Of a stretch of DNA of 64,000 nt, positions 31,111 through 61,205 are shown piece after piece (positions within the stretch are counted from its first letter, which is position 1; each line of letters begins with the position of its first letter). The notes beneath the pieces were generated by a model. It was not told the origin of the DNA, did no database searches, and saw only the letters and a list, made by a program, of their open reading frames with translations. Origin of the DNA: Grifola frondosa (Eukaryota > Basidiomycota > Agaricomycetes > Polyporales > Grifolaceae); assembly GCA_001683735.1 (NCBI GenBank), contig LUGG01000007.1, positions 1,240,001-1,304,000 on the forward strand, in the 5' to 3' direction. Made by a program: the position numbers and the translations under genes.

Positions 31111-31253
31111 ATCGACTGTCTTAAATATTGCCTCCGACGTGTTAGCACAAATAAATCATCCGAGAGGCGGCACCGATCATCTGGCTGTTAAAAAATACCG
31201 CAACAAACTCCACGGAAATATCCGTCTCAAACTCTAGCAGCACGGCGCCCATC

Positions 31254-32993
31254 CTAGGCGAAGAAACCATGGCGGTCCCAGCCCAACTTCCGCCTGCCCA
31301 TCTCTCACCCAGCCAAGCCGCTCGGCCGTCAACGCGGCCACCCTTATGAACACCGTCCATCGAGCACCTCGGCGCCCTCCAAGCCGGCCTTCGCCACCTT
31401 CGCGATGTCGCCCGGCTTGCGTGTGCTGTAGACGGTGGCGAAGTGCACGAGCGCGCGCTGCAGCTTGCAGAGGTGGTCATCGGGGTGCTGCAGCGTTGTC
31501 TGGATGCTGGGGAGCCACGGGTTGGTCGAAGGCTCGCCTGGGAGAGTGTCCCGATCGCGGGTGCAGCATGCGGTGTGCTGGGTTCGATGGGCGTCGGTGG
31601 TACGGAAGCGTAAAAGTCTTTGAGAGGCAGCGCCGGACGTCCGCGTGCCACCCACCACCCCAAGGAGCTTGTGAAGAATGTGCAGAGCAGGATTGAAATT
31701 GAATCTGGCAACAGATACGCTGCGTAAGACGGGAGAAAAATCGCTGAGGTCACCAAGTGCATTCTATGACAATCAGACGTGCGCATAAGTATCATGAATT
31801 ATGGATTAGGGAGACACATACGGGAAAAAATCGGCATTTATGTTCCCCATGTTGCGCCCGGCCCATCCGCCGACTCCGTAAATCAAGACGTTCATCCAGG
31901 CTAATTCTTCGATTTTATTCGCGACGTCACCGGTATTGTCCCGTCAACGGTCCAATCCTCCGCATACTCCAGCAACATGTCAACGCTACTTGTAAGGACC
32001 TGTTGGAATGCAGCTCTGGGGTCTTTGAGGCGAAAGGCCGAGAGTCGAAGCGACCATCGCGGAAGAGACGGCCCAATATTGCGAGAGCATGCAAGCCGGG
32101 CCCGGCTGCACCGGTCTCGTCATCTGCTTTCTGCGGTTTCTCAAGCGTGAGATGAGAGACCATAGACGCGAAGTTGGACGCAGATGCATCTTGGGCATCC
32201 GCGTTACTGAATAATGCAGACGGGGAGGAGGATGCCATCCGCCGGATGGACTGCAGCCTGCGCTAGCCCTTTATCAGGAGCGATGTCAGCGTGACCGTCG
32301 TGGTGATGTGGGAGAGAACACTCTACCTTCCGCAAGCTGACCGAATAGACCAAATTCCAAGCCGTAGCCATAGTGAATAAGTGGATGCAGCAGATCGCCG
32401 AGAAAGCGCGTCAGCATCCAAGGAGGCTCTTTCCCTGGGGCAGAAGCCTCAATGTTGGCCTTATTGGAGAAGAAATATTCCTCGAGCGTTGTATTAGTGC
32501 CGTTCTCGAGCAAACTTGAAGAGAAGAAGGCGAGATACGAATCATGGAAGCTGAAAATGGGTCATCAGCGATAAATACTCATCTGAAAATTCAAGTCTCA
32601 CTTCATCTTGCCAAGATGATCGAAGATATTCTCCTCTATGATAGCGTGAGGAGACTTAAGCGCAGCGCGCATGGTAGGCACATGTCTCTTGTAGACCACT
32701 TCGATGAGAGAGCTACTGGCGCCCAACGAGTATGCTGCAAGCAAGTGATGCGAAGTGTGGCTGAAGAATCATTGTTGGTGAACAACCTGAAGATGGAAAG
32801 ATATCAAAGCCTTACTTGTGGAACCCAGATCATTAACGAATGCACGCCACCGTTGGTGGCTGTCCTTCAGGACTTTCGTAACCGTCACCTTGGATTCGTG
32901 CGATACGCCTACTAGGTGTCCCGGGCACAACACGGAGATCGGGGGAGAAGGTAGAGGATAGAGGATATCCAAATGTCGGTTGCTAGAAGCCAT
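31254..32993 (-). CDS. Questin-oxidase-like (DUF4243) protein, copy 1
   Basis: Member of the family of the Aspergillus questin oxidase and AflY, proposed Baeyer-Villiger-type oxidoreductases; the basidiomycete role is unknown. The start MASSNRHLDILYPLPSP matches copies 2 and 3, followed by a Pro-rich stretch, GVSHESKVTVTKVLKDS and WRAFVNDLG. Further exons give the family core WMLTRFLGDLLHPLIHYGYG and EFGLFGQLAEG (about 32,440-32,330), then LVTSAIFLPSYAAYLLPDS, ARGRPALPLKDFYAS and GLEGAEVLDG. Frame shifts of one base are needed near 32,830, 31,350 and 31,280; the stop used by the family frame is at 31,254. Lies on the same strand as copies 2 and 3; the tRNA-flanked element separates it from copy 2. 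Confidence 0.75.
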
Positions 32994-33670: not shown

Positions 33671-33706
33671 TGGTTCCGCCCGGGCTCGAACCGGGGACCT
33701 CCTGTG
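33671..33706 (-). tRNA. Separated 3' half of a tRNA-Val
   Basis: 36 nt equal to tRNA positions 38-73: 3' strand of the anticodon stem, variable loop, complete T arm (GGTTCGAGCCC core) and 3' acceptor strand with discriminator A. Only one base differs from the same segment of the intact tRNA-Val at 49,419-49,454. No 5' half lies upstream. Its acceptor strand pairs fully, with two G-U pairs, with the isolated 5' half at 49,681-49,712. A T9 run follows immediately on the minus strand. It therefore looks like one side of a tRNA gene interrupted between positions 37 and 38. Confidence 0.8.
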
Positions 33707-33948
33707 CACACAATCGAATTACGTAATCCAAGAACTTGTTGTATCACTTTTCGTGACATTAGTGACATCATTGTCAATGTGACTTTTGGGACAGTTTGAA
33801 TCTGCTACTTTCATAACATCGAGATTAAAGTACAATATTGAACAGTAATATAATTTAGCACACTCTTTTCACTTTGCACAATGGGTCAAAAATGTTAACT
33901 GAACCTGCTTTCATAAGAATTTCTGTTCACGCATGCAGCATTGTCGAA

Positions 33949-33972
33949 GATGTCACAAGCATGTCACAAGCA
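33949..33972. repeat. Short tandem repeat ATGTCACAAGC x2
   Basis: Two adjacent copies of an 11-bp unit inside the left end of the putative element, within a region rich in TGACA/TGTCA words (33,755-34,010). It might be a protein-binding region of the element end; not shown. Confidence 0.4.
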
Positions 33973-34060
33973 GTCCATAACATCACTGTGACAACCTGTA
34001 CATGTGCTGTTCACTGTCGAAGTGAAGCGCTGGCACATCTTGTCAGTACAAAGGCTACTG

Positions 34061-34084
34061 TCTCAAACCAGGGACCTCTAGCGC
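34061..34084 (-). repeat. Degenerate tRNA-Val 3'-half-like sequence
   Basis: CTCAAACCAGGGACCTC matches the T-arm region CTCGAACCGGGGACCTC of the 33,671 copy at 15 of 17 positions; both differences are G-to-A on the plus strand. Possibly an older attachment-site scar; short enough that chance is not excluded. Confidence 0.35.
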
Positions 34085-34199
34085 ATGCTGACAATATATT
34101 AATTATGGAATACCAACACTCTAGGGACAAGCTAACACGATGACAAGAGGTGTGATAATACATGTAGTCTTACGCTCTAGTATGGATATGAGAGTCCAC

Positions 34200-35621
34200 C
34201 TACTCGGAAGGCACATTAGACGGATAGTCTGCAAGAAAAGCCTCCAAGTAATTAAAGAAGGTTTCATCGACTCTATTGGCAATCTCCAGCAAAAGTTTGG
34301 TAGACCCCTCTTGAACGGCTGAGAGACAGTTTTGGGTGCCGTTGGTGCTGTTCGATGGATTGACATGCGGAGTGTTTGTTATCAAGAGGTTGAGCAACGT
34401 AGCAAAGTTGTGTGTCCCGTTGTGCAAGTTGGAGATACACCAGTGTGAGTCCAACAATACTGGGGCGCCAAACTATATAAATAGTGAGATGAGTACAATA
34501 TCACTATCCATGCAGTGACGCTTACATGAAGGTAAATATGCAGCAGTCGATTGCGTGCCTTGATGTCATTTTCAATAGAGCGCTTGAAAAGAGAGTACTG
34601 TTTGCGATACTGTCGGTCTGTACGTTTGTCATTATTGTTAAGAGAGTCAAAGCGCTGCAGCCAAAAGCCAGACTGATCCTTGGAAAAAGCACCAGCATAG
34701 AATTGCTGCTTGAATTGCATCCCACTAGGACCAACTGCCTTGTCCGCAAAGTCATGAGCAAATTTGATAGCTTCGATCTTGAGAAAGAGCTTTTCGGAAT
34801 ACAGCTGAGTTTTCGTCATGGCATATGCATCTACCATGGTCTATATGATATATACCACGCATATAACCACTAATAAGCACCATGTCTAGTAGATATATAA
34901 TCATTGTAACATACCTTCTGTCGCATCAGTGCTTTCGAGAGAAAGTCATCCTCCTCATCAACATGTGCACTGCCGGTAAAGACATCAGACCAAGATGTGG
35001 GGGTAATTCCGATGGTAGCAGCCCATAATGCATCCTAAGAGTACCGCACACAATTAGCAATCATACTGCTGCACCACATAGTGTACTTACCCATTCCTGC
35101 TCGTTGATCTTATTGGAATACCCACGAAAAAGTCGGCGAAAAGCAGCTACTTCTTGTGCTTTGGTGGTTCCACCCTGTGGAAGAACACATTGCTTAAAGA
35201 ACTCTGCTGGAGGAATCGGATGCTCTCCGATGACTTCGAGAATGCTGTTGCATCTTGTTGTTGCGTCAATAAGGGTCTTGCTTGGTGCCACTACTTGCTG
35301 GGATGCGTGGCTCTGCGGCACATCAGCTGGCACATCCTGTGTATATATGCATGTAATCTTACACAGTCAGACAACGAAGCAAAAACACTGAAATCTCACC
35401 TGTGCTTCATTCTCATCTTCTTCATCAGAGCTTTCTTCTTGCTCTTTATCATAATCACCAACAAACTCATGTACAACCTTGCGAGCGCATCGATGAAGTT
35501 GCCTGCGTCTTTTTTTTGTGTTTGGAGAGGCGGAATTGCCAAGTGGGTGACTGACTCCATAGTGCAAGACATGATTAAGGATATTAATGACAGCAATATC
35601 AGAGTCAAGTTGAGGTAACAT
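34200..35621 (-). CDS. Unknown 391-residue protein, candidate cargo of the element
   Basis: Not recognised. Five exons, 35621-35400, 35336-35091, 35034-34915, 34840-34526 and 34472-34200, with clean GT-AG introns; every intron is phase 0 and no frame is broken, so the gene seems to be under selection or young. N-terminus MLPQLDSDIAVINILNHVL; a basic patch (TKKRRRQLHRCARK) then a very acidic stretch (KEQEESSDEEDENEAQ), typical of nuclear proteins; central helical part (SEKLFLKIEAIKFAHDFADK, YRKQYSLFKRSIENDIKARN); carboxy end Asn/Thr-rich then amphipathic (RVDETFFNYLEAF). No transmembrane span or catalytic motif seen. It lies between the left tRNA half and the nested retrotransposon and could act in mobility with the recombinase or be passive cargo. 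Confidence 0.7.
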
Positions 35622-35975
35622 TGTGGTTCAAGAAACAAGATATTATGATCAAGTGGTGGTCAAAGATCAAGAAAGCGAGTTGAAAACGATGATTGCAACT
35701 TTCGATCACATGTGTGACATGCTATCAGTGAAACTACATTGTGCACACATATTGTTTAACTGCGATACTAAACCACTACCTGCGTGTGATAAAATGCACA
35801 ATATATTTTGTGAATTAAAGTCACATGTATGACACTGCAATAATATCCTTGAAGAACATCACAAACTGCAAGACAAAATAGAATGACGGAAACACGGCAC
35901 ATAAGGTTGAAAAGACCACATAAAGGAGGAGCAGTAGCAGAACGGGCATCTAGCATGAGCATCTAGGTCTAGGGG

Positions 35976-35980
35976 CAAAG
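35976..35980. repeat. Target-site duplication CAAAG (left)
   Basis: Identical 5-mer directly outside the left LTR; partner at 44,014-44,018. Confidence 0.95.
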
Positions 35981-36480
35981 TGTTAAGACCGTTACCGATG
36001 GCTACCTATCGAGGTACCAAGTGTACAGGGGTCCTAGCGGTCTAGGGGTCCTAGGTCCTAAGTTCAAGGTTGAGGACTTCTACAAGAAAAGTTCTCGAGG
36101 ATGCGGATAGAAGGGAGACGGAGCGAAGCGGGCAGAAGGGCACGCTTATAGCGGAGTCTGGGGTAGAACGGTAGAATTGAACGAAGAGATCGAACTAGCG
36201 ATCATCTTCGAAGTCCCTAGCTATTTATACAGGAGTCCATGGTCCGTGCGCCGTAACTCGTAACTAATCGGAACTGGTAACTAACGGTATCATACGATGT
36301 GGCACCTGGTCCGTGCACTACAAACGTATCGTGAAAAAAGAAAAGAAAACGGGCTACTGGTCACGTGCATAAAGCACATAGCGAGTAACTGAGTAGCCCA
36401 CTGTCCCCGACAACAAAGAAAGTATCGAACCAATAAGTAAAAACAGTAACCAACAATAATGCTTACGACCGTTTGTAACA
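35981..36480 (-). repeat. LTR (3' LTR of the element)
   Basis: 500-bp direct repeat with the copy at 43,514-44,013, one difference seen by eye; TG...CA ends. Confidence 0.95.
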
Positions 36481-36496
36481 CCACCCCCCTCTCTAC
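36481..36496 (-). other. Polypurine tract
   Basis: Purine-rich on the element strand (AGAGAGGGGGGTGG) and directly adjacent to the 3' LTR, where plus-strand DNA synthesis of an LTR element is primed. Confidence 0.8.
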
Positions 36497-36519
36497 GATC
36501 ATCGCCCCGATGATCATCC

Positions 36520-37678
36520 TCAGACCACCATTGTGTCCTCCTCCTCAGAAAACTCGGAATCGGACTCGGCCCCTGCGCAAAAGGGGTTACGCCATCCTCC
36601 ATTCGTGGGGACGATGTAAACGGAGCCAACGGTAGGGGGCTCCAAGAGGTCGGCCGATTCGGCGGAGTGGTTGACCGTCCGTAGTGTCGGGTGGTAGGGA
36701 CTGGGGATGGTAAAAAGGGGAGCGGCCACGAAAGGACTCGGGGGTAGGGGAGCGAGTGGGGCGAGGGGAGCATTGGCAGCGGCGTAGTTTTTGTAGGAGT
36801 CGCAATTAGTGTCGCATCCCTTCTGCCAACAATAGACGCAGGTAGGGGCGTCTGCGGGCCATTGTTCCTCGGGGTCCTTGGTCTCTGGTTCGTCGGGCTC
36901 GGGAGAGTTATCCCAGGTGGGCTCGGCAGGAATGACGGGAGGGGGAGACCTTGGTGTTCGTGCATGGTGGCGAGGTTGGCCATGAACTGGGCTACTTCCT
37001 CGTGTTTGGCTTCGTACAACTTGTAGGCGTTGCACGGGTTGGCCTTGATGTCGCAGCCCCATTGGTGCAAAAGGGGCAGACGTCGGCGGCCAAGCGGGGG
37101 TCGTTCTCTTTATCAGAGGCTTGGGAAGGAGGAGTGGAAAGGGGACGTTGGGAGTGGGCCAAAGGCCCGGGCACCAATCCCTGAAGGCGATGAAGGGTGA
37201 GGGCGTGGGCCAAGGCGTTAATAACCTCCTCAGCGGCGGCCAACGTAGCGTAGTGGGAGGATTCGCAAACGGCGTAAGGACGCCAGGTCTCGGGAGAGGG
37301 GTTAAGCATGTAGGCCCGAACCAACGTGGAACGGGCGAGAGGGTAGGCGGCGGCGGAGTTGGCGAGATGGCGGTAGATACGGACCATGCGCATCTGGGAC
37401 GGGCACGTTTCGAGCCTTTGGTCGACCTTGCCGCGAAGGTCGGGGTGGACGATGGTCCAGCCAATTCGATCGGCCAGAGTGCCCTGAGGCCAAATGCGAA
37501 CGGGGTGCGAGGGAGGTGGTCGTAAGTGACTACCTGGTTGCGAAGCCAGGAGGGGTACCGGGGGTGGATTGGGAAGGCATAGGATGTCCTGAGCGAGTAA
37601 TCGAGTAGATTGGTAGTGGAGTGGAAAACGGGGAGCTGGGGAGGGATCACAACTTGTGCCTCTTTTTATAGTTCGCAA
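36520..37678 (-). CDS. Accessory ORF of the retrotransposon with paired Cys clusters
   Basis: An extra gene between the chromodomain end of pol and the polypurine tract; unusual for Ty3/gypsy. The coding sense runs through three frames and needs one-base shifts near 37.5, 37.05 and 36.97 kb: N-terminal VVTYDHLPRTPFAF, a well-structured middle (RGKVDQRLETCPSQMRMVRI, LVRAYMLNPSPETWRPYAVC, LAAAEEVINALAHALTLHRL), then two similar Cys clusters, VCPFCTNG...CDIKANPCNAYK and CVYCWQKGCDTNCDSYKN, and an acidic tail (SDSEFSEEED). Pattern C-x2-C-x(3-4)-C-x(3-5)-C suggests zinc binding. Function unknown; env-like features (signal, membrane span) are absent. Confidence 0.6.
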
Positions 37679-40600
37679 GGATGGTCTGTGCGTTCTTCAG
37701 GGCAGACTCCGGTTCCCAAGTATTTTCCGATGCCGGGTACCCTTTCCATGCCACGAGGTATTGCCGTCGGCGATGGTATAGTCGGTGGTTGATGATGGCT
37801 TCGACTTCGTATTCTGGTTCTTGTTCTATCAGGTCTGGTGGCGGTCTGGGGTACGATGGACCATGTTCTTCCGTAGTTCGGAACGGTGTTAATAGGGTAG
37901 CGTGGAATACGGGGTGCATTTTCCATGTCTTCGGAAGCCGTAGTTGATATGTAACCGGCCTAGGACCTTGAGAATTTCAAATGGGCCTTCTCGTTTGGGG
38001 GCTAGCTTTCGGTGTGGATAGTTCAGCCGAAGGTTCTTTCCTTCTAGCCAGACTTTGTCCCCCACTTTGAAGTTGGGAAGCTTCCCTTTGACACGTTTGG
38101 CCATGGCTGCCGCAGCTACCTCATGGGCCGCAGCAGCTTCTTTGCGCAGCTCCGTGAGAGCGTCCAGTCGTTCTTTGACCGCAGGGAACTTTGATTCTAT
38201 TCTGGGCGTGCCCACCGCTCTGGGCTGTATCCCATGAGAATTCGGAACGGGGATTCATTGGTAACCGAGTGCGGTCGTTGATTGTGGGCGAATTCGATTT
38301 CAGGAAGCAGTTTCACCCAGGTTTCAGGGTGGTTTCCACATAGAATTCGTAGGGAGGCTTCGACTTCCTGATTGACTCGTTCAGATTCTCCGTCGGTTTG
38401 GGGGTGATAAGCCGTGCTCATTGACGACTTGATGCCTATTATGGTATTCCATTCCTGGAATACCTGGGGCGAATTGGGGTCCTCTGTCTGAAATGATTCT
38501 GTCTGGAAGTCCGTATCGTCGATAGACATTTCTGTGGAGGAGATCGGCTGTTCCGATTGCATCTATTGTCTTGTTACAAGGGGTGAGCACGATTCCTTTG
38601 GTGACATCGTGGTCTACTACCACGAGAAGGGAGTCAAATCCTTCAGACTCGGGTAGGTCCGTGACGAAATCCATTGTAAGGGTTGAAAAGGGTCGTGCGT
38701 CGTGCGCCGCAGGAATGGGTTGTAACGGGGGAGACGTTGGGTGTGTATTGACCTTGCTTGCTTGGCATTCTGCGCAGCCCTGGACGTATTTGGTAATAAA
38801 GTCCCGCATCTGTGGCCAATAGTATTCCCTCGCTACTAGAGCATATGTCTTCTGGATTCCCGGATGTCCCATGACTGCTAAGTCATGATGTTGTCGGACT
38901 ATTTCTCGTCGTAGTTCCTGGTCGCAAGGTACGTAAACTTTATCCTTATAAGGATAAGGTCGCCTTCGATCTTCCAGTCCTTGACTGCTGATTTCAAGGG
39001 GGAATTTTGCCGTTGTTAAGGGCTTGGATGGTTTCCACCACCACTAAATCCCTTACTTTGGCGTCCCGGATTCGTTCTATCAATTCAATATTGATAGCAT
39101 TGGCGAAAAGTTCGCTAGGAAGTAGGACCATGTCCTTATTGTCGGAGTCACCGGGGTCGTGGTCCGGGCGTCGTGACAAGGCGTCGGACTGTACCATTTG
39201 TTTTCCTGGCACGTGATGGAGGGTTACGTCGAATTGGGAAAGAAATAGGCTCCATCGTGCCTGCCTCCTGTTTAAGCGTCGTGCTGTCCGGAAGTAGGTG
39301 AGGTTCTTATGGTCGGATAGAATGGTAACTGGGTGCGGTCCTCCTTCGAGGTAGTGACGCCATTGTTCTAGGGCACGAATGATGCCCAAGAGCTCGCGAT
39401 CATAGATCTCGTAATTTCGCTCTGCGGGGGAAAATCCTTTGGAGAGGTAGGCGACGGGGTGCCAGTGTCCGGCGTCGTCTTGTTGGCGAAGGACTGCTCC
39501 GGTGGCTACTTTGGATGCATCAGATTCGACCACGAAAGGTTTCGTTAGGTCCGGCATCTTTAGTACGGGTTCTTCGGCAAATTTCCTTTTCAGAGTTTGA
39601 AATGCCTGCTCGGCTGCGGGCGTCCAGTCCCACTTTTTGTCCTTGTGGGTGAGCTCGGTGAGGGGTCTCACAATGTGAGAGTATTTCTCAATGAACCGCC
39701 TGTAGAAATTGCCGAAGCCTAGAAAGGCTTGTACCTGTTTGATTGTCTTGGGGGCCGGCCAGTCACGTATGCCTTTGAGTTTCACGGGGTCCATGGCAAC
39801 CTCGTCGGGTCGAATGATCATTCCAAGGAATTCGACTTCGGTTACCTCGAACAGACATTTCTCGATTTTCAGGTAAAGGTCATTTTCTCGTAGCCTTTCG
39901 AGGACTCGTAGGGTTCGTCGGCGGTGTTCTTCTATATCATGAGAAAAGATGAGGATGTCGTCCATATATATGACAATCCATCCTTCATCGATCATGTCGC
40001 GGAAGATGTCGTTCATCATTGCTTGGAAGGTCCCCGGGGAGTTGCATAGACCAAAGAACATGACGGTAGGTTCATATAACCCTTTACTGGTTTTGAATGC
40101 GGCCTTCCATTGGTGTCCCTCTTTGATCCTTACGTTATTGTATCCGGATCGAAGATCAAATTTGCTAAACACTGTAGCTCCTTTGAGCTTGTCAATGAGT
40201 TCGGCGATTAAAGGAAGGGGATAGGCATTCTTGACCGTGTTCTCGTTGAGGTAACGATAGTCCTGACACGGACGGAGAGATCCATCCTTTTTGAGGACGA
40301 AGAAGAATGGGCTTGCTTGGGGTGACTGGGATTCACGAATGTATCCCTTCTGGAGATTTTCTTTAAGAAATTGATCCATCGCCTCATTCTCCTTTTGAGA
40401 TAAGGGATACACCTTGCAATTCTTCGGCACAAATCCCTCTTTGAGATTAATCTCGTGGTCCCATGACCTGGATTCTGGGAATCGTTCAGCTGCTTTCTTT
40501 TCAAACACATCCCTGTATTCAGCATATTGTGGGGGCAGAGATTCGTCCAAAGTTGTCTTTTTCTTCAACTTTGACTCCGCTTCTGCGAGTAGTGTGGACT

Positions 40601-41297
40601 GCGTGGTTCGTGCGATTGAGAATCGTCTACCGTGGTTATGGAACAGCATTCGGCCTATCCATTTGTCTGCTTTGTAGGGCAGCGGCTTCGAGTAAAGTTC
40701 TTCCGTTGTGGGTGGAGCATTGTCCGGGGAGAACAGCCCAATTGCATTCTCTCCTTGGAGATAGGCTATGATCATTTCGTCCGTCTGTTCTGGTTCAGGA
40801 ATAGCGCGTAGCCCAAAGAAGGCTCCCGGTGGAGCAAACTTCTTAATCCATTCGGCGCGCTGTTGCATGGCTCGGATGTTTTGGTCAGGTATGACCATGT
40901 TTCCTGTTTCCCAGTTGATCCTTGGATTGGTCTTTCTTAACCAAGGGATTCCCAGGATGACTTCTTCTGGTCCAAGAGCGGTGACATAGAATCTGGTAGG
41001 GATTTTTTGTCCTTGAAGGATTAGACTTCCTTCGACTCGTTCGGTGATATATCCATTGCGATTGGAGGATCCATCAACGTTGCTGATCTTGATAGCCCTT
41101 GGCAATTTCACTGTGGGGAGTTTGAACCTTTCCACAAGTCGTTGTGATATAAAGGTTCCATCTGCCCCGCTGTCAATGAGGGCTTTTATTCCGATGGCTT
41201 TTCCGTCAAATTCCACGTAACTGGGTAACCGAATTGTATTGCGCCTGCGCTCGGTGGATACAGTTAGGGAAATTGACACTTGCGGCAGTCCTGTCAT
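37647..41297 (-). CDS. pol: Retrotransposon pol (protease, RT, RNase H, integrase, chromodomain)
   Basis: Replication polyprotein of the nested Ty3/gypsy element. Protease core [10 protein letters not shown]; reverse transcriptase [21 protein letters not shown] and catalytic YMDDILIF; RNase [15 protein letters not shown] and YDRELLGII; integrase zinc region (H, H, CAEC), DDE-type pieces [17 protein letters not shown] and [14 protein letters not shown]-terminal chromodomain [20 protein letters not shown] followed by [13 protein letters not shown]. The ORF starts at an ATG 14 nt past the gag stop in another frame. It is interrupted by apparent one-base shifts near 39.0, 38.5, 38.2 and 37.9 kb, odd for a copy with nearly identical LTRs. 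Confidence 0.9.
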
Positions 41298-41311
41298 CGG
41301 ATCAGGCTGCC

Positions 41312-42582
41312 CTACTGAAAATCCATTTCGTCGGAAAGTACTTCCCCATATCCCAATTCCTCGGTTGCTCGAATGGGTGCCGGTACCACTTCCTCTTCAT
41401 CCGATCCTTGGAGAGTTTCTTCTTCGTCATCTGCATTCTCAATTGTTGCTCTGACCGTCTTCTTCGGCTGTTCCTTCTCCTGTTTCTTCTTCGGTTGATC
41501 CTTTTCCGTCTTCTTCGGGCATTCTCTGGCCATATGTCCGACTTCTTTGCAATAGAAGCATGCTCCTTTCCTCAGGAGTTTCATGCGTTCATCCTGAGTC
41601 AACTTGTTGACTCCCGCCGCCTTGATAGTTTTTCCTGACATCGTCTTTTTTGGATAATTCCCTTTCTCCGTTTCGATGGCTCGGTTGGTACGCCAGGCTC
41701 GATCAATCTGCTTGGCCTTGTCCTGCCATCCCTCTATGGTAGTGGGGGGGTTATCCATGTACATTATCTTTTCTCTGATTCCCTTGGCCAGCTTTTGGCG
41801 GTACATGGCAATTAGGGCCGCCCCTTGCGTGATGTTGGCCTCTCTGGCCAGGCGATTAAACTCGGTATTGAAGTCATCGATGGGCCCCGTCTGTGAGAGG
41901 GCCTCCAATTTAATGGAGGCCATTATATCCTTGTCGACTACTTCGAACGTATCCCTGATACGTTGTCGAAAGGCCATCCACGTCCCAAACCCCCTTTCCA
42001 TATTGGGGTTATTGGGGTCGGGCTCTTGGGCCATGGTAACTTCAGCTTGTGCCCACGTTTCGGCATTCTTTCCCCTCATGTAGGAGATAGCGGTGACTAT
42101 CTTGGCCTCATCGGTGGCATAGTCCAGGGGTCTGTTCTTGAACATGAGATATAGTTCATTAAGGAACTTCGTGGTCTTGGTCCTATCCCCATCGAAGGTA
42201 TCCGGTTCTTTGACCTTTGCTTTGGATTGAATACCGATCACAGGGGGATTCTGACCGGGCAATGGTCCGGCACCTGCCCCTCCAGGTCCTCCAGGTCCAC
42301 CTGGTCCTCCAGGGGGGGGTCCTGGTGGTGGCCCACCGCCAGGTGCTCCTCCAGGTCCGCCTGGCCCACCTGTACCTCCAGGGGTCCAGCGGTAAGTCCA
42401 CCAGGAGGTCCTCCAGGGGGTCCTCCTCCGCCTCCTCCTGGTACTCCTGGTCCAGTCAATCCTCCCGTAATTCCCCCTGTCCATGTTCCTCCCGGTTGGG
42501 CAGGTGGCAAGGGGGTGAGGGCCGAACCAAGGCTTACAGTGGTTCCTATGCTAGGTGTTTGGGTCGTTGTTTGCGTTCCCAT
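41312..42582 (-). CDS. gag: Retrotransposon gag
   Basis: Capsid/nucleocapsid protein. Starts at the ATG at 42,582 (MGTQTTTQTPSIG), runs through a Gly/Pro-rich collagen-like tract (many GGP and GPG units, about 42,450-42,250) where the frame shifts once near 42,390, then the capsid region (KVKEPDTFDGDRTKTTKFL, DFNTEFNRLA) and a CCHC zinc knuckle (CFYCKEVGHMARECP) with basic and acidic tails (KKKQEKEQPKK; DDEEETLQGSDEEE). The Gly/Pro tract also creates long false frames on the other strand. Confidence 0.85.
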
Positions 42583-42858
42583 GGCTAGTGGCTTGGGCTT
42601 CAGGGGGGTTTCTCCTTTCCCTTGGAACTGATAGACGGCAGTGGTTCTTCTTCGGGTATAGAAGGGAGATTTGGCTTTCCAAACAGTAGTTCCTGTTCAG
42701 TTTGGATGGGTTCGTATGCGTTGGTTTTAGATGCGATGTCATTATATCGGTTTCTGCACGGTTGTTCTTCACACACTACCCAGTTATAGGTAGTGCCGGG
42801 GAAGTAGTGTACGTCTACTTCGTCCTCAGGGTCGAAGCGATGCGGCCGTTGGGTGCAG

Positions 42859-43302
42859 TTAGAACGAGTTGCTGTCTGTTCTGCCAGTTTGTTCGATCCG
42901 CCCTTGGTTTTCCCAAAGTTCGTAGATTTTCTGTGCGTCCAAAAGCCTTCTTAGAAAATTCGTAAGCCCAGCAAGTTCTTCGTCTCCTAGCAGGTAGGGG
43001 TTCTGAATGGATCGTTGAATGCGGGTAATTCGGTTCTGGAGGTAGTCCGGAAAGGAGGAATCTGGGGTGGGGGGAAGGGAATTCAACGACGTCCTGTCTG
43101 CTAGCTCGTTTCTGGATTGATATGATCCCGAGAACCGATTGAGGAAGGTAAGGGCTCTTTCCAAATGATATAGAGTGGCTTCCAAGTCGAGTTGGACTTC
43201 TGGTTCTATAAATGGATCGGTGTTATGGGCGAGGACGATCGCCTGGATGTTCTGGATGTAATGTTCAAGGATACGTGCAAGGGGGGTGGGGGGAAATGTC
43301 AA
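42859..43302 (-). CDS. Small ORF upstream of gag in the retrotransposon
   Basis: 147 residues, MTFPPTPLARILEHYIQNIQ to the end, largely alpha-helical in appearance (LDLEATLYHLERALTFLNRF, LAGLTNFLRRLLDAQKIYEL). It lies between the 5' LTR and gag. It may be an N-terminal part of gag separated by an indel, or an independent leader protein. No family recognised. Confidence 0.5.
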   Translation of the reverse strand: MTFPPTPLARILEHYIQNIQAIVLAHNTDPFIEPEVQLDLEATLYHLERALTFLNRFSGSYQSRNELADRTSLNSLPPTPDSSFPDYLQNRITRIQRSIQNPYLLGDEELAGLTNFLRRLLDAQKIYELWENQGRIEQTGRTDSNSF

Positions 43303-43513
43303 AAGGCTTTGCCTTTCCAGATCCGCTTCAATTCCGGGCCTATTAGGTCCTCAGAATTTGTCTTGGGTCAGGGCTCTCTGAGCTCCTTGATTCGTTCTAG
43401 GTATCGTCGGGGTTCTCTGAACTCCTCGACTTCAGGCTAAAATTCCTGTTCTGGATTCGGTGGGGTCAGTCCTGCACCTGTCGAGGTGGGACAAGAGGTA
43501 GAGTTCGATCTAG

Positions 43514-44013
43514 TGTTAAGACCGTTACCGATGGCTACCTATCGAGGTACCAAGTGTACAGGGGTCCTAGCGGTCTAGGGGTCCTAGGTCCTAAGTTCAA
43601 GGTTGAGGACTTCTACAAGAAAAGTTCTCGAGGATGCGGATAGAAGGGAGACGGAGCGAAGCGGGCAGAAGGGCACGCTTATAGCGGAGTCTGGGGTAGA
43701 ACGGTAGAATTGAACGAAGAGATCGAACTAGCGATCATCTTCGAAGTCCCTAGCTATTTATACAGGAGTCCATGGTCCGTGCGCCGTAACTCGTAACTAA
43801 TCGGAACTGGTAACTAACGGTATCATACGATGTGGCACCTGGTCCGTGCACTACAAACGTATCGTGAAAAAAGAAAAGAAAACGGGCTACTGGTCACGTG
43901 CATAAAGCACATAGCGAGTAACTGAGTAGCCCACTGTCCCCGACAACAAAGAAAGTATCGAACCAATAAGTAAAAACAGTAACCAACGATAATGCTTACG
44001 ACCGTTTGTAACA
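43514..44013 (-). repeat. LTR (5' LTR of the element)
   Basis: 500-bp direct repeat with 35,981-36,480. A primer-binding site just inside it (43,513 downward) is not obvious; the adjacent minus-strand sequence begins CTAGATCGAACTCTACC, which I could not match to a tRNA 3' end. Confidence 0.95.
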
Positions 44014-44018
44014 CAAAG
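44014..44018. repeat. Target-site duplication CAAAG (right)
   Basis: Identical 5-mer directly outside the right LTR; partner at 35,976-35,980. Confidence 0.95.
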
Positions 44019-44072
44019 AGAGTCCATGCAAGTCCAAGAGTCCAAGGAAGTCTAAAAGTCCAAGGAAGTCCA

Positions 44073-47000
44073 TCAGTCGTCCTTCTCAAATGGTGGAGCT
44101 GTCGCGGCCCATGTTGCAAAATCATGTGATGGTCCCCAGATGCTGCGAGAGACTGATTCATCACGAATCCTAAATGTTTTGTTCTTGCAAAGGTTAGGCA
44201 TATGTTCCCGGATGTCATGAAATTGGCGACGATGGCTGGGACAATAATGCTTTGGCGGTCCTTTGGTATCAGATGTCCTGCATCTCTGATAGTAGTGTCA
44301 GCATGTTAACCCTATGCAATGATCAATATCATCACCTTCTTAGAGCTGCTGGCTGAATTATCTGGAAGCCAAGTGATGTCCTCGCCAATGGTCTTCTTGG
44401 AGATCATGTCAAATGCACGATATGCAGCAACGTCACGACAGCAAGCCTGAGTTGCATCACGTATATGATCCAGGATGTTAATGTAGACATGGTGACAGCC
44501 GCTGCACCTCCAGTGCTCCTATAAAAGTCATTTAGTTGAAAATTACAGCCAACATGCTCTGACACGGCACCTCAGTAGGTGAGATGCATTTTTTCTTTCT
44601 CTGGCCTTGCACGCTGTTATTGCTAGGACCTGCTATTGTTTCTAGCTCTTGGGGATCGGTGAAAAATGTCTTGAATATTGACGTATTGAGTGCAGCTGAT
44701 AAAGATTCATGATAATGCACTCACCTTGCCATGCATCCTCCTCAACGAGAGTTCGTCTTCTCTACCTGATGTGTTTGTCTCGGTGACCTTATTACTCATC
44801 ATATCTACCTCGCTATCGCTATCGACATCCACCTTGTTGTCCTTTGTGGGCAGTCTGAGCCGACGCACCTGAACACATCGCTCTGTTCTGCATATGGGCA
44901 CTTGATGGTAACATATCATATGGACTAAAAGTTCGTGAGATGTAAATGAATTTGTGCCACAACTTGGCACCGGACAAAGCATTGTCTGGCTGTCACCAAT
45001 AATTGTTGTGAGTTGCTTCTTGTGATATGAGAGATGGTGCACGAATGCTTGATTGCTCGCAAATCTATTTTCATAATTTAATATTAGTGTAGCGGAATAA
45101 CAGAATCACGCACTGCATCATTCGGATAATCATGGGTAACTCCTCATTATAAACGCACCATGGACATATCATTGGCGTAAAAGCAATGCCGCTCTCGATA
45201 TGTCCGTGAAATTCTGGTCGCTTTCCACCAAAGCCTTCCTCGATATCAAACTCCACAGACCCCTGGGCCTCAAGAAGCCCGGTGATAGATGGAGTTACAT
45301 CAACATGGTCAGTTTGTCGAACTGCAAAGGGTCTATAGAGAGTACCATAGTGCCCAATAAGATGATCGTGCCATGCATGCTTATCTCCGGATAAGTCCAC
45401 ATTCCTATTCAAACCATATTATGAGTAATATATGCAGTGTATGTCAATTAAACATACCACGTATCACAAAAATAACAGAATTGCACATGCGCTGTGGCCT
45501 CCACATTGATTGCATGTGCTTCTGCAAAGTGAACATTCCAATCGTCGCACTCGTCCTGTCCGCATGGCACTCCATCGGCTACTTGCCATTTACATGATGG
45601 TAAACTGACCCGACTATGCAGACTAGCCAAATGACGATCAAGGTGTTTGAGGAAAGCCTTGCGATCTGGAAAGATTTCCATCTTCTGTTTGCATGATAGC
45701 CATAAGCATTGTCCAGGTATGTAGTTCTCGTCTAGTGCTGCACTGGCATCCTTGATCTTCTGTTTCTGGAGACACGTGTGGATATGTGCCCCAGCAGTCA
45801 TTCTGGGAAGATTCTGTGAGCTAAAGTAGCCATGAGCGAAGATGACACTCATAGTGATAAGCGAAAAATGCACCTGCAGATTAATCCACATACTGGACAC
45901 TTATTTTCCAGGGTAGGCATCTCACCTGGATAACACTTTGGAAATGGACGCTTAGGCATTTTAAGGAGCATTGTAATCGATGTGGCAAGATGCTTTGAAT
46001 CAGTCCCGATGATGTCGCTAGGATAAATGTGGCACAGAAAGCTAGTATATGGATCGCTCGATGGTGCCGTCATGGGAATAGACTGGTTGCTGAAGCTGCC
46101 TGCTTCAGCGCCAGGGGAATTAAGATTGCTCACATCGTTGCCTGAGAATGTTGCTGCCATCAGTTTAATGGGCTTTTCAGGGGCCTATAAGCACGTCAGC
46201 ATGTAGGCAGTGAGGTCAGATAATACTAGAAATAGTTACTGATTTGTTTAGTGCCCTAAAAGATGCCTTTGCAAAGTAGTTTTTGCGCATAATTTGGAGA
46301 CGTTGGTCTTCCTCCCGCCGAAGTGTAGTATCTCTCTTCTGAGCCACCTGTTTGATCTCCTCACGTGTTTGTTCTATCTGTAAGAGCAGGGAAGCATCAT
46401 TATGTTTGCTGTTACCCGATGCAAGCTGATCACAAAGGTTCGAAACTTGGCACTCCAACTAGTGGACCAGGATCAATAAGTTCATATATGAACGTGCAAG
46501 GAAATAGCGCACCTCTACTTTGCGTTCAAGAAGTGCAAGAATAACGGGGTCCGTGAGCAAAGCATTTCTCTCTGCTAATGTTAGTTGAGTGGGTGCATTG
46601 GGATCTATGGTAGACGACATCCGGCCGATCGACTGTATAGCTGGTGTTCAGATTCTGCAGTCTCTTACTTTGAATTAAATGTACCTTGATAAGGTCTATC
46701 ACTTCCACCCTCTGACCTCGCTCATCCTGCACTCCTTGAACATCGGTTGTTGACAGACGACTCTGGTAGCTATTCTGTGTGCGCTATGTTAGTAATGTAT
46801 GATCATGGACCATCAAAAAGACACACATAGAAAGTTCCCGAGTTTGGAGTGTGCCCCAACAACAGCTTGCGCTGCTCTTCTGTGAGCTCAGAGCTCCATA
46901 TATTGGCAGCACCACGGCGAAAGCAGTATGGTGTCACGTGAGCTATATACATTAGAATCAGTGTAATATTTCCGAGAAAAGATGAGATTGCGCACCTTCA

Positions 47001-48160
47001 AACCCAGCTAATTCACTGTAAAGTGCAAGTAGCGATAGATACCGATAGTAAGGAAGAGGCTTGTCAGCAGAAATTTGCCAGCCATCAGGCGACCGCTCCT
47101 CATTGCGAAGAAGTGGAAGTGCCTTCTTGTCCTCCTTGATTGTCAAATGATGTGAACGTTCAGGCATAGACACAAAAATTTGGTCAATGGTCTGAACATC
47201 TTCAAAAACATTATCTTCCAGTGCCATGGCAAGGTATAACATGGCAGAACAAGCAGAACGACGATCTGATGGCTCTTCAAAGATGATGAACTCTTTGTAG
47301 AAGCTGTCATCGTCACGATGGCCCTTCAAAAGTCGTATGCGAATAACGATGGCGATGACAACTATTGTTTTCTGGGAGGGGATAATCCACACTGAGTGAT
47401 CACCATGGGTGATCGCCTGGTCAGAGTGGCGATATCCAGAGGCCTCGACCAATGCTCCAGGGCGTTCTCCTGAAACTGCAGATAACAAGCTTGTGTAGAT
47501 AAGTTGGAGTTGCATACGAGAGGTGCGAAAGTGGGTGCTGTCAAGCCACATGGCACGGATAAGGATATTAACATCGACTATATCAGCAACGGGCTTCTTT
47601 CGAATTTTGGTGGTGAGCTGAACAACCATGTCTTCAGAGTGCAGGTATGCCAGAACTTGCATGCGGGTTTGGGGTGGTACCAATAGACCTGCATAGAAAG
47701 CCCAGAAGCCCAAGAATGTGCGCACATAGGAACTAAGAGTGTTTTTCGAAATATATGTGTCAAGGCGTCCGACCAACGACATTGCCATCCAGCGTACAAA
47801 TTCTTTGATATGCTCTGGGTGGCAAGTGCATTTATCAACGTATATATCAATGCATATATCAACATATGAGATAGGAAATGGCATACCGGCACTAGGCATC
47901 ATGCAATCGGGAGCAATCTTTGCGCTCAAATATGCATATTTCTGGGCAATGATTGGTGGCTTTGATTGATAATAGGTTACGAATTCTGTCCAATATTTGA
48001 GTATGAGTGCATGATTTTTGAGCGTTGTTTTTGCAAGCTTCCTGTGATGATGAACATTTAATGGTTCCTCAAAGCGAGCATGCAGTTCAGTATCTGCAAG
48101 GCGTTGTTCGAGAACTTGTGCGTGAGTGAGACGATCCTTTGTGAGAAAGCCTGATGCCAT
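44073..48160 (-). CDS. DUF3435-type tyrosine recombinase with Cys/His-rich C-terminal exons (captain-like)
   Basis: Probable DNA integrase of the 16-kb element. First exons 48160-46996, 46942-46827, 46774-46685 and 46632-46513 are in frame. Start at MASGFLTKDRLTHAQ with CCATGG context. Catalytic pattern of the family: first Arg in SGERPGALVEASGYR; LLKGHRDDDSFYKEF; second Arg block TPYCFRRGAAN; LLLGH; Tyr in NSYQSRLSTTDVQG. Then the DUF3435-typical tail (TDPVILALLERKVELE, EEIKQVAQKRDTTLRREEDQ, IMRKNYFAKASFRALN). Later exons carry Cys/His clusters (KCPVCGLICR; CLWLSCKQKM...H...H; CYFCDTWYV; SHELLVHMICYH), reading to a stop at about 44,073. About 1.3 kb separates the start from the right tRNA, and the gene reads into the element. 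C-terminal exon borders are not all resolved. Confidence 0.75.
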
Positions 48161-49316
48161 GGCAAGGCATGAAGTAAGTTGCTGGTCAAGAAGTGAGAGT
48201 CTGTGCTGGCGATGACATGCATTATGGTGTGAAGAGTTGGGACCATAGTACGTACATGACAAATCACAACAACACATAACAATGTGAAAGACAGGACAAG
48301 ATGTTGTGCGACAACATAAGCGCCCATGCAGACCGAGGTGGTACTGGTTAATTCACGGTTAATGGGGGTCTGATAGTGTAATATGTGTCATAACACGGCA
48401 GCATCAGCTCACTTTCACAGCAATAGACAGTTTGTTTTGGCCCAGTCAATGACCGGGCAGCCCAGCAAGTCAGTACAAGGGTATGTTGGGACTCTAGATA
48501 GTCAGACATCACAAAGAATGTGCATCAGTTAATGGGTCAAGTGCTCAGATTAGGTTGATGCTGTGAGATGCATTGTTTAGTGAGTCACCGGAGATATGAA
48601 ATATGACGCACGCAGTGACCAAGTCGGATTTGTGCCAATGCTTGAGATTTGGGCATGGCTTCTGCCCAGCACACACAATCTTGAGGTTACAGCAATGGAC
48701 AATAAGCACATATCAATTGGGGAATGGTTTATGTGCTCATATGGTAACAATATTATACATGATCACACTGGCCCTGTTGGGTGATGAGAACATGTTGCAT
48801 GACCGTGGACGGAATTGATAGCAGATGATGGGATGATCAATGATGGGGGGCATGATGGAGGGAATGATGAAGGGAGTGTTGGGCAGCAAATACCATGACA
48901 CTTGTCTCTTGCTCAACATTGACTGCTGCCGCGGTCCATGGGTCACATGAGACTCCCCGAAAGCACACGGAGGAGACTTTTTTGGGATGCGGACAGACAC
49001 GAGAGCAGATTAACAGCATATAGAATTGTTTAGGAGTCTGTCCCCATGTACGAGTTTATCCCCATGTATCGTACAAATGAAAAGAGAATAAGAGAATGAA
49101 AATGGCCATGTTTGAGACTATGCCATAGTGCTCGAACTACCTTCTCTGTGTTTCCGGCACTGCTGCCGCACTGACACCATCATCGGGCCTAGCGTGCGCA
49201 ACTCAAAGTTGCATGTGATAGATCTTCATCTGCTTTTGAACACTAGTAATGGAGCATATGCATGATGAGTGATTATGTGGGCGAGTTTCTCCTGAAGTTG
49301 TCGTGTCCGGCGCTCA
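48161..49316. other. Recombinase upstream region, no gene seen
   Basis: Right-end region of the putative element between the recombinase start and the inverted repeats. Only short frames. It contains CATG/TGATG-rich purine-biased sequence (48,780-48,880) and a small palindrome GCAACTCAAAGTTGC near 49,198. Promoter elements were not identified. Confidence 0.5.
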
Positions 49317-49392
49317 GGTCATGTGCACCCGCCGACCAAACTTTGAGCCAGATTAAGCGCACTCAAAGTTCGTACGGCGGGTGCACGTGACC
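49317..49392. repeat. Long imperfect inverted repeat beside tRNA-Val
   Basis: Arms of 31 bp: left 49,317-49,347 and right 49,362-49,392. The outer GGTCA(T/C)GTGCACCCGCCG and inner AACTTTGAG parts match with only a few mismatches between them; spacer 14 bp. Lies 26 bp from the tRNA-Val 3' end. A possible recombinase-binding or cruciform structure at the element end. Confidence 0.8.
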
Positions 49393-49418
49393 GACATAAG
49401 TCACTGCGAAAAAGACAA

Positions 49419-49510
49419 TGGTCCCGCCCGGGCTCGAACCGGGGACCTCCTGTGATCCAGTAGACAGCCACTGTGAAACAGACGTGATGAACCTACTACA
49501 CTACAGGACC
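49419..49510 (-). tRNA. tRNA-Val(CAC) with a 17-nt intron
   Basis: Complete cloverleaf: acceptor GGTCCTG/CGGGACC with one G-U, discriminator A; D arm GTGTAGTAGGTTCATCAC; anticodon stem TCTGT/ACAGG; loop TTCACA + C with anticodon CAC after removing the intron (17 nt, between positions 37 and 38); T arm CCCGGTTCGAGCCCGGG. A T5 run about 6 nt past the 3' end on the minus strand can end Pol III transcription. It sits inside the interval bounded by the split tRNA-Val halves; its 3' exon is almost identical to the left half and its 5' exon is clearly diverged from the right half. Confidence 0.9.
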
Positions 49511-49556
49511 ACATAATAATGCTGGATCACTAGATTATGTCAGGAGCATGGTGCAA

Positions 49557-49604
49557 CCCAAACAGGCAGGCATTCTATGGTCATAGAATGCCTGCCCTTT
49601 TGGG
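49557..49604. repeat. Perfect 15-bp hairpin (32-bp core palindrome)
   Basis: GGCAGGCATTCTATG at 49,565-49,579 is perfectly complementary to 49,582-49,596 with a 2-nt loop; flanking CCCAAA and TTTTGGG extend it imperfectly. Located between the intact tRNA and the separated 5' half, near the inferred right boundary. Confidence 0.9.
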
Positions 49605-49680
49605 ATTTTCCGTCGATCGTCTGCTATAATTGGTCAGCTCTCATGTGGAAGTTGGTCAACTCACACGTAGTGACCCGGAG

Positions 49681-49712
49681 ACAGACGTGATAACCAACTA
49701 CACCACAAAACC
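49681..49712 (-). tRNA. Separated 5' half of a tRNA-Val
   Basis: 32 nt equal to tRNA positions 1-31: acceptor strand GGTTTTG, D arm GTGTAGTTGGTTATCAC (the canonical eukaryotic tRNA-Val D arm) and anticodon-stem strand TCTGT. tRNA homology stops in the anticodon loop; no 3' half follows on the minus strand (CTCCGGGTCACTACG instead). Its acceptor strand fits the 3' half at 33,671-33,706 (CGGAACC, two G-U pairs). Confidence 0.75.
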
Positions 49713-49813: not shown

Positions 49814-51575
49814 TCAAAAGAATCCCGCGCGGTCCCAATTCATCTCCTCCTGTCCCTCTCTCATCCACCCCATCCTGTCCGCGGTCAACCCCGCAGCGCG
49901 AACGAACACGGTCCCATCAAGCACCTCCGCGCCCTCCAAGCCGGGGCTCTGCCGCGCGAGCTCCGCAAAGTGTCCTGCGGGCACCGTGCCATAGTGCGCA
50001 GCGTAGTGTGCGAGCGCGCGCTGCAACTTGCAGAGGTGTTCCGCGGGATGCACGAGCGTGGTCTGCAGGATGGGCAGCCAGGGGTTCGGCGAGGCGTCCG
50101 CCGGCGTGAGCGTCTTCTCTGTTGGCGTCCCGTGCGGCGCGCCCGGCTCCGCGGGCTTTGGCGTGGTGCCCGCGTAGAACTCGCGGATGGGGAGCGCGGG
50201 GCGCCCCCGCGCGATCCACCACACAACGGAGACATTGAAGAACGTGCGCAGAAGGGTGGTGGTGGAGGACGGAGAAAGGTACGCCACGATCGACGGGAGG
50301 AAGAGCGACGAAGTCACCAGATGCATCCTGGGGGTGCATGAGCGTGTCGAACGGGAGCAGTCTGTGATGCCATACTTACAAGAAAAAGTCCGCGTTGAAC
50401 TTTCCCGTATGGGACGTCTTTCTGGCGCCCCAGCCGCCCACTCCGTAGAACAACACATTCATCCACGCAAGCTCCTCAATTCTTCTCAGCGACTGCATGC
50501 GCGTTCGCGCCGTCCACGGTCCACTCATCCACATATCGCATCAGGGCCTCACCTACGGCCTGCTGACGACGTCCAGGACGGACAGGTTGCTCTCTACCTT
50601 GAGCGGCAGCCCGATTGCGGACGGCGCGAATGCAGGATCGTTGAGAATGCGGGAGATGATCGTGAGAGCGCGCACGCCGGATTTAGTCTGCGTGGGACTG
50701 TGGGTGTGCTGGGCTGACGATTTGCCTAGGCTCAGCGAGGGCAAGAGGGCCGTGAGGCGCGACACGATCGCGTGGCCACTGTCGGGGTGCGACACCGATT
50801 TGAAGAGTGTAGGAGGAATCATGGTCACGGCTTGGGCGGAATGACAAGTCGCCTGTGCAAGACCTATTCAGGAAAATGGATTAGCATTGGTAGATCTGCG
50901 TCAAGAAAGGGTGTGCCTGCCTTCTGCGACCAGTCCGAGGAATCCAAACTCGAGTCCGCATCCAGTGTGGATCATAGGGTGCAGAATTGACGCCAGGAAG
51001 CGATTCAGCATCCTCGCCGGTTGCTGGTCCGGCCCGAGCGTCGTGACGTTTGCTTTCCGCGAAAACATATTCTTCGAGAGTTTCCGTTACGCCCTTCTCC
51101 TGCAGAAAGCAGTGAAGAACTCCAGATATGAGGTGTAGAAGCTACCGAGCAGATAAGCACGCAACCGAAGACGCATCAGATATGCACTTACTCCCTCTCC
51201 CCAAGGTGCGCATAGAAGTTGCTCTCGCGGATAGGCTCGGGCGAATTGAATGCAGGGCGCATGTACGAGACATGGGTCTGGTATGCCGCCTCAATCAAGG
51301 TCCACCAGCGCCCATGGCGTATATGGCGACCATATGGTGAGACGCATGGCTGCAAAGCACAAGTCTTACAGGGCACCGTACTAATGAGTGGAGAACCGTA
51401 CTTACTTATGGAAACCCCTGTCGTTAAAGAACGCGTGCCACTTCTGGTTGTCGGACTTTTACCAAACTGCACCAGACTCAGGCGATATACCAGGGAAGCG
51501 CGGAGGGCATAGCTGAGAGGGCGGCGCAGTAGGGAGCGGGAACAAGTCGTTCAGAGTTCCAGTAGTCGAATTCAT
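49814..51575 (-). CDS. Questin-oxidase-like (DUF4243) protein, copy 2
   Basis: Same family as copies 1 and 3. Starts at the ATG at 51,575 (MNSTTGTLNDLFPLPTAPPS), then FPGISPESGAV, WHAFFNDRGFHK, SHHMVAIYAMGAGGP, IEAAYQTHVSYMRPAF, RMLNRFLASILHPMIHTGCG, LEFGFLGLVAEG, and C-terminal LVTSSLFLPSIVAYLSPSS, ARGRPALPIREFYAG and ELARQSPGLEGAEVLDG. Introns are visible (for example near 51,380 and 50,340). Frame is lost near 51,450 (in-frame TAA), 51,300, 51,085 and 51,030, so this copy is either decayed or affected by indel errors. The intact last exon (50,330-49,814) shows no decay. It lies about 100 bp from the tRNA 5' half, at the right flank of the element. Confidence 0.75.
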
Positions 51576-61106: not shown

Positions 61107-61205
61107 TCCGATATGGTGTAGTGGCTAACATTATCGCCTCTCATATACCCTGCCAAAGTGAGGATGGGTGCGCGATAGCCCGGGGTTCGATTCCCCGTGT
61201 CGGAA
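61107..61205 (+). tRNA. tRNA-Glu(CTC) with a 27-nt intron
   Basis: Acceptor TCCGATA/TGTCGGA with discriminator A; D region GTGTAGTGGCTAACAT; anticodon stem ATCGC/GCGAT; loop CTCTCA + C with anticodon CTC once the 27-nt intron (after position 37) is removed; T arm CGGGGTTCGATTCCCCG. A T7 run at 61,224-61,230 is a good Pol III terminator. It lies 135 bp from the stop of DUF4243 copy 3. Confidence 0.9.

Follow-up and report, generated by a model that had tools for sequence, protein, structure and literature searches.

In prokaryotes, genomic islands with a tyrosine recombinase and a tRNA gene as target regenerate that target via a fragment of their own, and the displaced fragment of the original gene marks the island end (PMC4383910). 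The available extracts of that study count 3919 islands, 2083 of them centred on the anticodon, 3760 with a 3' fragment and 159 with a 5' fragment. In fungi, the available part of one account describes Starships as Pezizomycotina elements, some of which favour another RNA gene, the 5S rDNA (PMC12134995). Eight Starships were also reported from the basidiomycete Tremella fuciformis, in an article whose main text, as far as available, is without the word tRNA (PMC13066641). Fungal Cryptons, for their part, are tyrosine-recombinase DNA transposons with a GCR1_C domain and mostly 6-bp direct repeats, and the main text of the report in question, from which we draw on extracts, does not use the word tRNA either (PMC3212892). 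Here we describe a 64,000-nucleotide window of the basidiomycete Grifola frondosa (C7:1240001-1304000; assembly of 39.06 Mb in 64 contigs) in which a small element with a Starship-type recombinase lies between the two halves of one tRNA-Val gene and carries a complete tRNA-Val(CAC) gene of its own. Coordinates without a prefix are window positions, and C7, C4, C2 and C10 are contigs of this genome.

The explanation that we favour, and regard as probable, is that a small Starship-like element targets the anticodon arm of tRNA-Val(CAC) genes, strands the two gene halves and supplies a replacement tRNA. A DUF3435 tyrosine recombinase (the captain) would carry out the insertion, each event would strand both halves and kill the host gene, and the tRNA-Val(CAC) carried beside the captain end would replace the lost tRNA and make the insertion tolerable. 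Retrotransposons of Dictyostelium and yeast that target tRNA genes insert beside these genes, not inside them, and work with other enzymes. What they have in common with the present element is the use of tRNA genes as landmarks (available part of PMC5006619). The resemblance to Starships lies in the DUF3435 captain, which is the first protein gene and reads inward from one end, and in an inverted repeat at the ends of the C4 copy. Starships, however, are giant cargo carriers, whereas this element has about 7.9 kb and one other conserved gene; its apparent tRNA target, its tRNA gene and its basidiomycete host also set it apart. With prokaryotic islands, as presented in the available extracts, it would share the tyrosine recombinase, the tRNA target, the break in the anticodon arm, the displaced fragment at the end and the preservation of tRNA function (PMC4383910). 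Unlike those islands, which regenerate the target via their own fragment, this element leaves both halves stranded (C7, C4) and contains a separate complete gene that has an intron of its own; the recombinase is also of another family and the host of another kingdom. Like a Crypton it is a fungal tyrosine-recombinase element, but its captain has PF11917, and no GCR1_C match was found in the captain by Pfam at E <= 0.01.

The stranded 5' half of the host gene (tRNA positions 1-31, 32 nt) lies at 49681-49712 on the minus strand, as supported by sequence match, a tRNA-Val covariance model and acceptor pairing. The 3' half, which begins at position 38 and is followed by a T-run, occupies 33671-33706 on the same strand (36 nt). 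Their acceptor strands, GGTTTTG and CGGAACC, form 7/7 pairs, and the anticodon stem, aligned by eye across both halves, forms 5/5. Taken separately, the C7 halves are detected by the tRNA-Val model with 32.8 bits (3' half) and 21 bits (5' half). The second-best ungapped match to the 5' half within the window reaches 21/32, and 60 base shuffles yielded at best 21/32 for the 5' half and 24/35 for the 3' half. Thus, the preliminary description of this stretch was right in placing tRNA-Val halves at 49712-49681 and 33706-33671 on the minus strand, in stating that their acceptor and anticodon stems still pair, and in reading them as one gene split near the anticodon loop with a tyrosine recombinase at one end of the interval. 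As the arrangement is known from the assembly alone, an assembly artefact or a chance match of tRNA-like pieces has to be considered; we find this very improbable, for the arrangement stands on separate contigs, the matches exceed the shuffled controls, and the C4 copy differs from that on C7 by about 13-15% and so does not represent one sequence placed twice.

The whole insertion, that is the captain element with its tRNA and a nested Ty3/gypsy retrotransposon, spans 33707-49680 on the minus strand (15,974 bp). Contrary to the earlier reading of the interval as a single insertion, the gypsy element at 35981-44013 accounts for about 8 of the 16 kb, and some 7,936 bp are left when it and one target duplication are removed. 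Large variable cargo is absent from this core of about 7.9 kb, which contains the captain and one further conserved gene. The captain gene, A0H81_07058 (44073-48160, minus strand, 1136 aa), is intron-rich and is the first protein gene from the 49,680 end, transcribed inward and preceded by the tRNA gene. Its protein has DUF3435 as sole Pfam match at E <= 0.01 (PF11917; database version E 2.8e-43 and 148.8 bits against a cut-off of 25.8; spliced model E 1e-41). The parallel with phage-type integrases drawn earlier stands as regards a tyrosine recombinase, whereas a phage type is not supported by the match, which is to DUF3435, the Starship captain family. The motifs ERPG, TPY..RRGAAN, LLLGH and FY are common to the C7 captain and a relative on C10, and we take them to be the catalytic boxes of a tyrosine recombinase.

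The earlier account of the interval, correct about the split and the recombinase, overlooked a complete tRNA-Val(CAC) gene at 49419-49510 (minus strand; exons 49510-49472 and 49454-49419, separated by a 17-nt intron). It is located between both halves, 170 nt from the stranded 5' half, and matches RF00005 with 50.2 bits (E 2.4e-8) and an insertion at the intron position. ARAGORN reads the near-identical genes in the C4 and C2 copies as Val(cac) with a 25-nt intron. The acceptor stem of the element gene is GGTCCTG/CGGGACC, as compared with GGTTTTG/CGGAACC in the split host gene, and forms 7/7 pairs, 6 of them Watson-Crick. The identification rests on covariance models rather than on RNA folding, in which the minimum-energy structure is not a cloverleaf (z -1.45 spliced, -1.81 unspliced); the 88.8 bits obtained with the tRNA-Val model follow by construction, as that model was built from sequences including this very tRNA. 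Exons differ between the element-borne genes at 1/75 (C7-C4), 0/75 (C7-C2) and 1/75 (C4-C2) sites, while spacer and intron differ at 17/184, 12/185 and 31/197 ungapped sites respectively (one-sided Fisher tests, p 0.015, 0.015 and 0.0002, the three comparisons being mutually dependent). Unlike these exons, the host 5' half at C4 is altered in its 3' part. The carried tRNA may be expressed and functional, and may compensate for the lost gene in a host that could have come to depend on it. A split tRNA-Val whose halves work in trans was considered and rejected, given that the C4 5' half is altered from around position 21 onwards and that there is a complete gene.

A terminal segment (49511-49680, minus strand) separates the element tRNA from the stranded 5' half of the host gene and is common to the C7, C4 and C2 copies, with an identity of 86-94% over ungapped columns and 21 to 76 gap columns. 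It includes a 48-nt inverted repeat, or hairpin, at 49557-49604 that is kept in C4 and C2; downstream of the element tRNA there is a 76-nt imperfect inverted repeat at 49317-49392. Sub-threshold matches to miRNA families in these two strong inverted repeats, one on either side of the element tRNA, probably reflect nothing more than the hairpins.

Copies of the element occur on two other contigs. The C4 copy comprises a 3' half (C4:265691-265726), a captain (C4:270895-272212), the complete tRNA (C4:273337-273437) and a 5' half near C4:273667-273699, and also contains the second conserved gene; it matches C7 at 87.4% identity over 4518 columns and at 84.8% over 2365 columns. The C2 fragment (C2:2417918-2419500) comprises the 5' half, from 2417922, the shared segment and a complete tRNA (2418143-2418243), and adjoins an apparent coding sequence; about 0.8 kb of it is related to the C4 interval between tRNA and captain (73%). 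The outer flanks of C2 and C4 are unrelated to those of C7 and to each other, and the order of 5' half, segment of about 170 nt, tRNA and start of the body is the same at all three loci; therefore, the segment and the 5' part of the tRNA travel with the element. The preliminary description had raised the case that the halves occur elsewhere as independent dispersed fragments. They do recur, but not independently, since they border copies of the same element.

A shared order would equally be seen if one already split locus, halves included, had been copied to other chromosomes by segmental duplication. The homology between C7 and C4, however, breaks off at the limits of the tRNA gene on either side, and the outer flanks are unrelated; this points to insertion into different tRNA genes and argues against whole-locus copying. 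Moreover, the 3' halves of C7 and C4 (C4:265690-265726) are identical over 37 nt although the bodies are about 12.6% different, an outcome with a chance of 0.007 if halves and bodies were copied together and sites are independent. We consider such duplication quite improbable.

A more distant relative on C10 bears on the choice of target. Its captain (C10:261886-263055, 40% identity, with an internal stop) adjoins a version of the second conserved gene in opposite orientation, and the two are flanked by a whole tRNA-Glu on one side and a partial one on the other (C10:259766-271139). The whole gene is a tRNA-Glu(TTC) with an enlarged D-loop found by ARAGORN (C10:259766-259875); the partial one is a 5' part (C10:271103-271139), identical over 32 nt to the Glu gene at C7:781501. 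Similar hairpin-bearing repeats are found immediately inside both pieces. No separate tRNA-Glu 3' half was found in C10:246000-275999, except for a T-arm match with 4 mismatches on the other strand at 248031. The arrangement resembles the regenerated gene and displaced fragment of bacterial islands and gives moderate support to tRNA targeting by this captain lineage, moderate because a local duplication could also explain it. As a separate observation, the window itself contains a tRNA-Glu(CTC) with a 27-nt intron at 61107-61205, and 8/12 Glu-like sites were found on C7.

The bacterial comparison leads to the main rival explanation, in which each locus holds tandem islands of the prokaryotic type. 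A first insertion would have completed the tRNA anew with the 5' part that it brought, the outer 5' half staying behind; a second, captain-bearing one would have done so with the 3' part that it brought, the far 3' half staying behind in turn. The complete tRNA would then be the regenerated target and not a carried gene. Prokaryotic islands do restore their target and mark their end with a displaced fragment, as far as the extracts go (PMC4383910); at C7 the captain segment has the complete tRNA on one side and the 3' fragment on the other, just as integrase-type elements in prokaryotes are bracketed by a tRNA gene and a displaced fragment, and the C10 relative looks like an island of this type with a 5' fragment. 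Nevertheless, two events per locus are required, while the three loci, though unrelated in their outer flanks, show the same order, an indication that the element takes the segment and the 5' part of the tRNA along. In addition, the carried 5' acceptor strand mispairs once (C-A) with the stranded 3' strand, which is moderate evidence, being a single position. The shared segment and the mismatch lead us to disfavour tandem islands, which we judge unlikely, and to prefer one insertion of an element with a complete spare gene.

For the consequences of such insertions, it matters where tRNA-Val(CAC) genes exist in the genome. We took a census by pattern searches of the 39-Mb genome, from which very divergent tRNA-Val(CAC) genes or introns beyond the gap limits could escape. 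A D-arm 16-mer with <=1 mismatch matched 14 places, namely 3 exact ones, all beside element tRNAs, 6 Val-AAC and 5 Ala-AGC (the reversed-pattern control gave 1 match in all at <=1 mismatch). A T-arm 25-mer with <=3 mismatches matched 5 places, of which 3 are the element tRNAs and the other 2 stranded 3' halves, with 0 in the control. When the joined halves served as query, all 9 matches fell at element loci, the C4 and C2 5' halves not being among them, and a pattern of anticodon loop plus T-arm gave 3 matches, all element-borne. A looser pattern gave 43 matches versus 38 in the reversed control and thus mostly chance hits: the 3 element tRNAs, 5 Ala-AGC, a tRNA at C2:2772669-2772750 and 34 others, in which neither ARAGORN (0/34) nor the tRNA-Val model (0/34 at E <= 1) found a tRNA. 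One further pattern (13 matches) missed the C4 half and, owing to an extra D-loop base, the three element tRNAs; an Rfam tRNA census (58 matches from 63 scored out of 1183 candidates) did not have the element tRNAs among its matches and was not used. Under the patterns used, no tRNA-Val(CAC) was found beyond the three element-borne copies. Since all three loci found hold the element or a remnant, genes carried by the element now seem to be the sole source of this isoacceptor.

A bolder proposal, to which we give slightly less than an even chance, is that the transposon destroyed every tRNA-Val(CAC) gene and now supplies the sole copies, so that its loss would harm the host; if the C10 case is real, the lineage would target tRNA-Val and tRNA-Glu, as bacterial integrases target tRNA genes. 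Replacement of the tRNA is known from bacterial genomic islands and is unexpected in a fungus. If our main explanation is right, the prokaryotic strategy of entering a tRNA gene and keeping the tRNA working would reach eukaryotes by means of a complete spare gene, and captain recombinases would be linked to tRNA targets. It would also give a reason for the persistence of a small captain element and offer a testable case of a transposon that is indispensable through translation. A DUF3435 gene flanked by paired tRNA halves provides a signature with which basidiomycete genomes can be searched.

Several observations weigh against our explanation. The captain of the C4 copy has internal stops, and at C2 the genome searches with captain and T-arm found no captain match and no 3' half, only the 5' fragment; because C2 is truncated and the C4 captain has stops, the three loci can be taken only conditionally as insertions by one autonomous unit. 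The bases adjoining the halves, 4-5 nt on the 5' side and 11 nt on the 3' side, are locus-specific and possibly belong to the host; there is no clean direct repeat, and the anticodon-loop bases TTCACA stand beside neither C7 half. Starships are flanked by direct repeats and in some cases have terminal inverted repeats. Here, the ends of the C4 copy have an exact 14-nt inverted repeat in common, ACTACGTGTGAGTT (0.0003 expected), but in the same test the C7 ends gave nothing >7 nt and the C4 repeat was not found there. ARAGORN calls the C7 element tRNA SeC(tca), not Val, and the structure predicted for the captain from a two-row alignment has a mean pLDDT of 32.4 and was not used. The tRNA at C2:2772669-2772750 looks like Val-UAC by eye and has a tRNA-Val model score of 64.2 bits, although ARAGORN says Ser(tga); if it is Val-UAC it could read GUG, and host dependence on the element tRNAs may therefore not be absolute. 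Finally, no relatives outside the Grifola frondosa genome were found in the databases searched, whose fungal coverage is uncertain.

As to the junctions themselves, the crossover cores TACGT, TTACGTAAT and TCAC were proposed by eye, and none of them fits C7, C4 and C2 together. The insertion was presumably driven by the recombinase, with a crossover probably in the anticodon arm, and the junctions might reflect something like a Tn916-type overlap carried from a former site.

Database searches brought little beyond this genome. The ORF of captain exon 1 had no protein match at E <= 0.001 among 6042 candidates, its own gene included, and the spliced captain found itself alone among 7996 scored proteins in a database of uncertain fungal coverage. 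Viral contigs gave no match, nor did the PDB by sequence. In the open PMC literature, preprints excluded, we found no account of a captain element that sits in a tRNA gene or brings a replacement tRNA along, which is no proof of its absence from print; the literature on basidiomycete tyrosine recombinases and tRNA genes yielded a yeast transposon review whose available part is without such an element.

The second conserved gene of the element is spliced, lies at 34200-35621 on the minus strand and is conserved in C4 and C10, with 63% identity to C10 when pieces are joined by hand and 56% to the C10 protein as given in the database. Its match to DUF4800 is sub-threshold (19.2 bits against 28.8), and Pfam gave no DUF4800 match in the C10 and C4 versions. 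A profile of the gene, with 7994 proteins scored, picked out 3, all of them from Grifola frondosa.

The nested Ty3/gypsy retrotransposon is on the minus strand, with long terminal repeats at about 35981-36480 and 43514-44013, and its reverse transcriptase, RNase H, gag and integrase zinc-binding domains exceed the Pfam cut-offs. It is bordered by the 5-bp target duplication CAAAG at 35976-35980 and 44014-44018, and the C4 copy has unoccupied sequence at the matching position. As the two repeats are 99.8% identical, its insertion into the element was recent.

Outside the insertion, open reading frames resembling Questin oxidase (PF14027) lie on either side, at 31142-31795 and 49814-50458, with a related third stretch at 61471-61935; they probably represent a local gene family.

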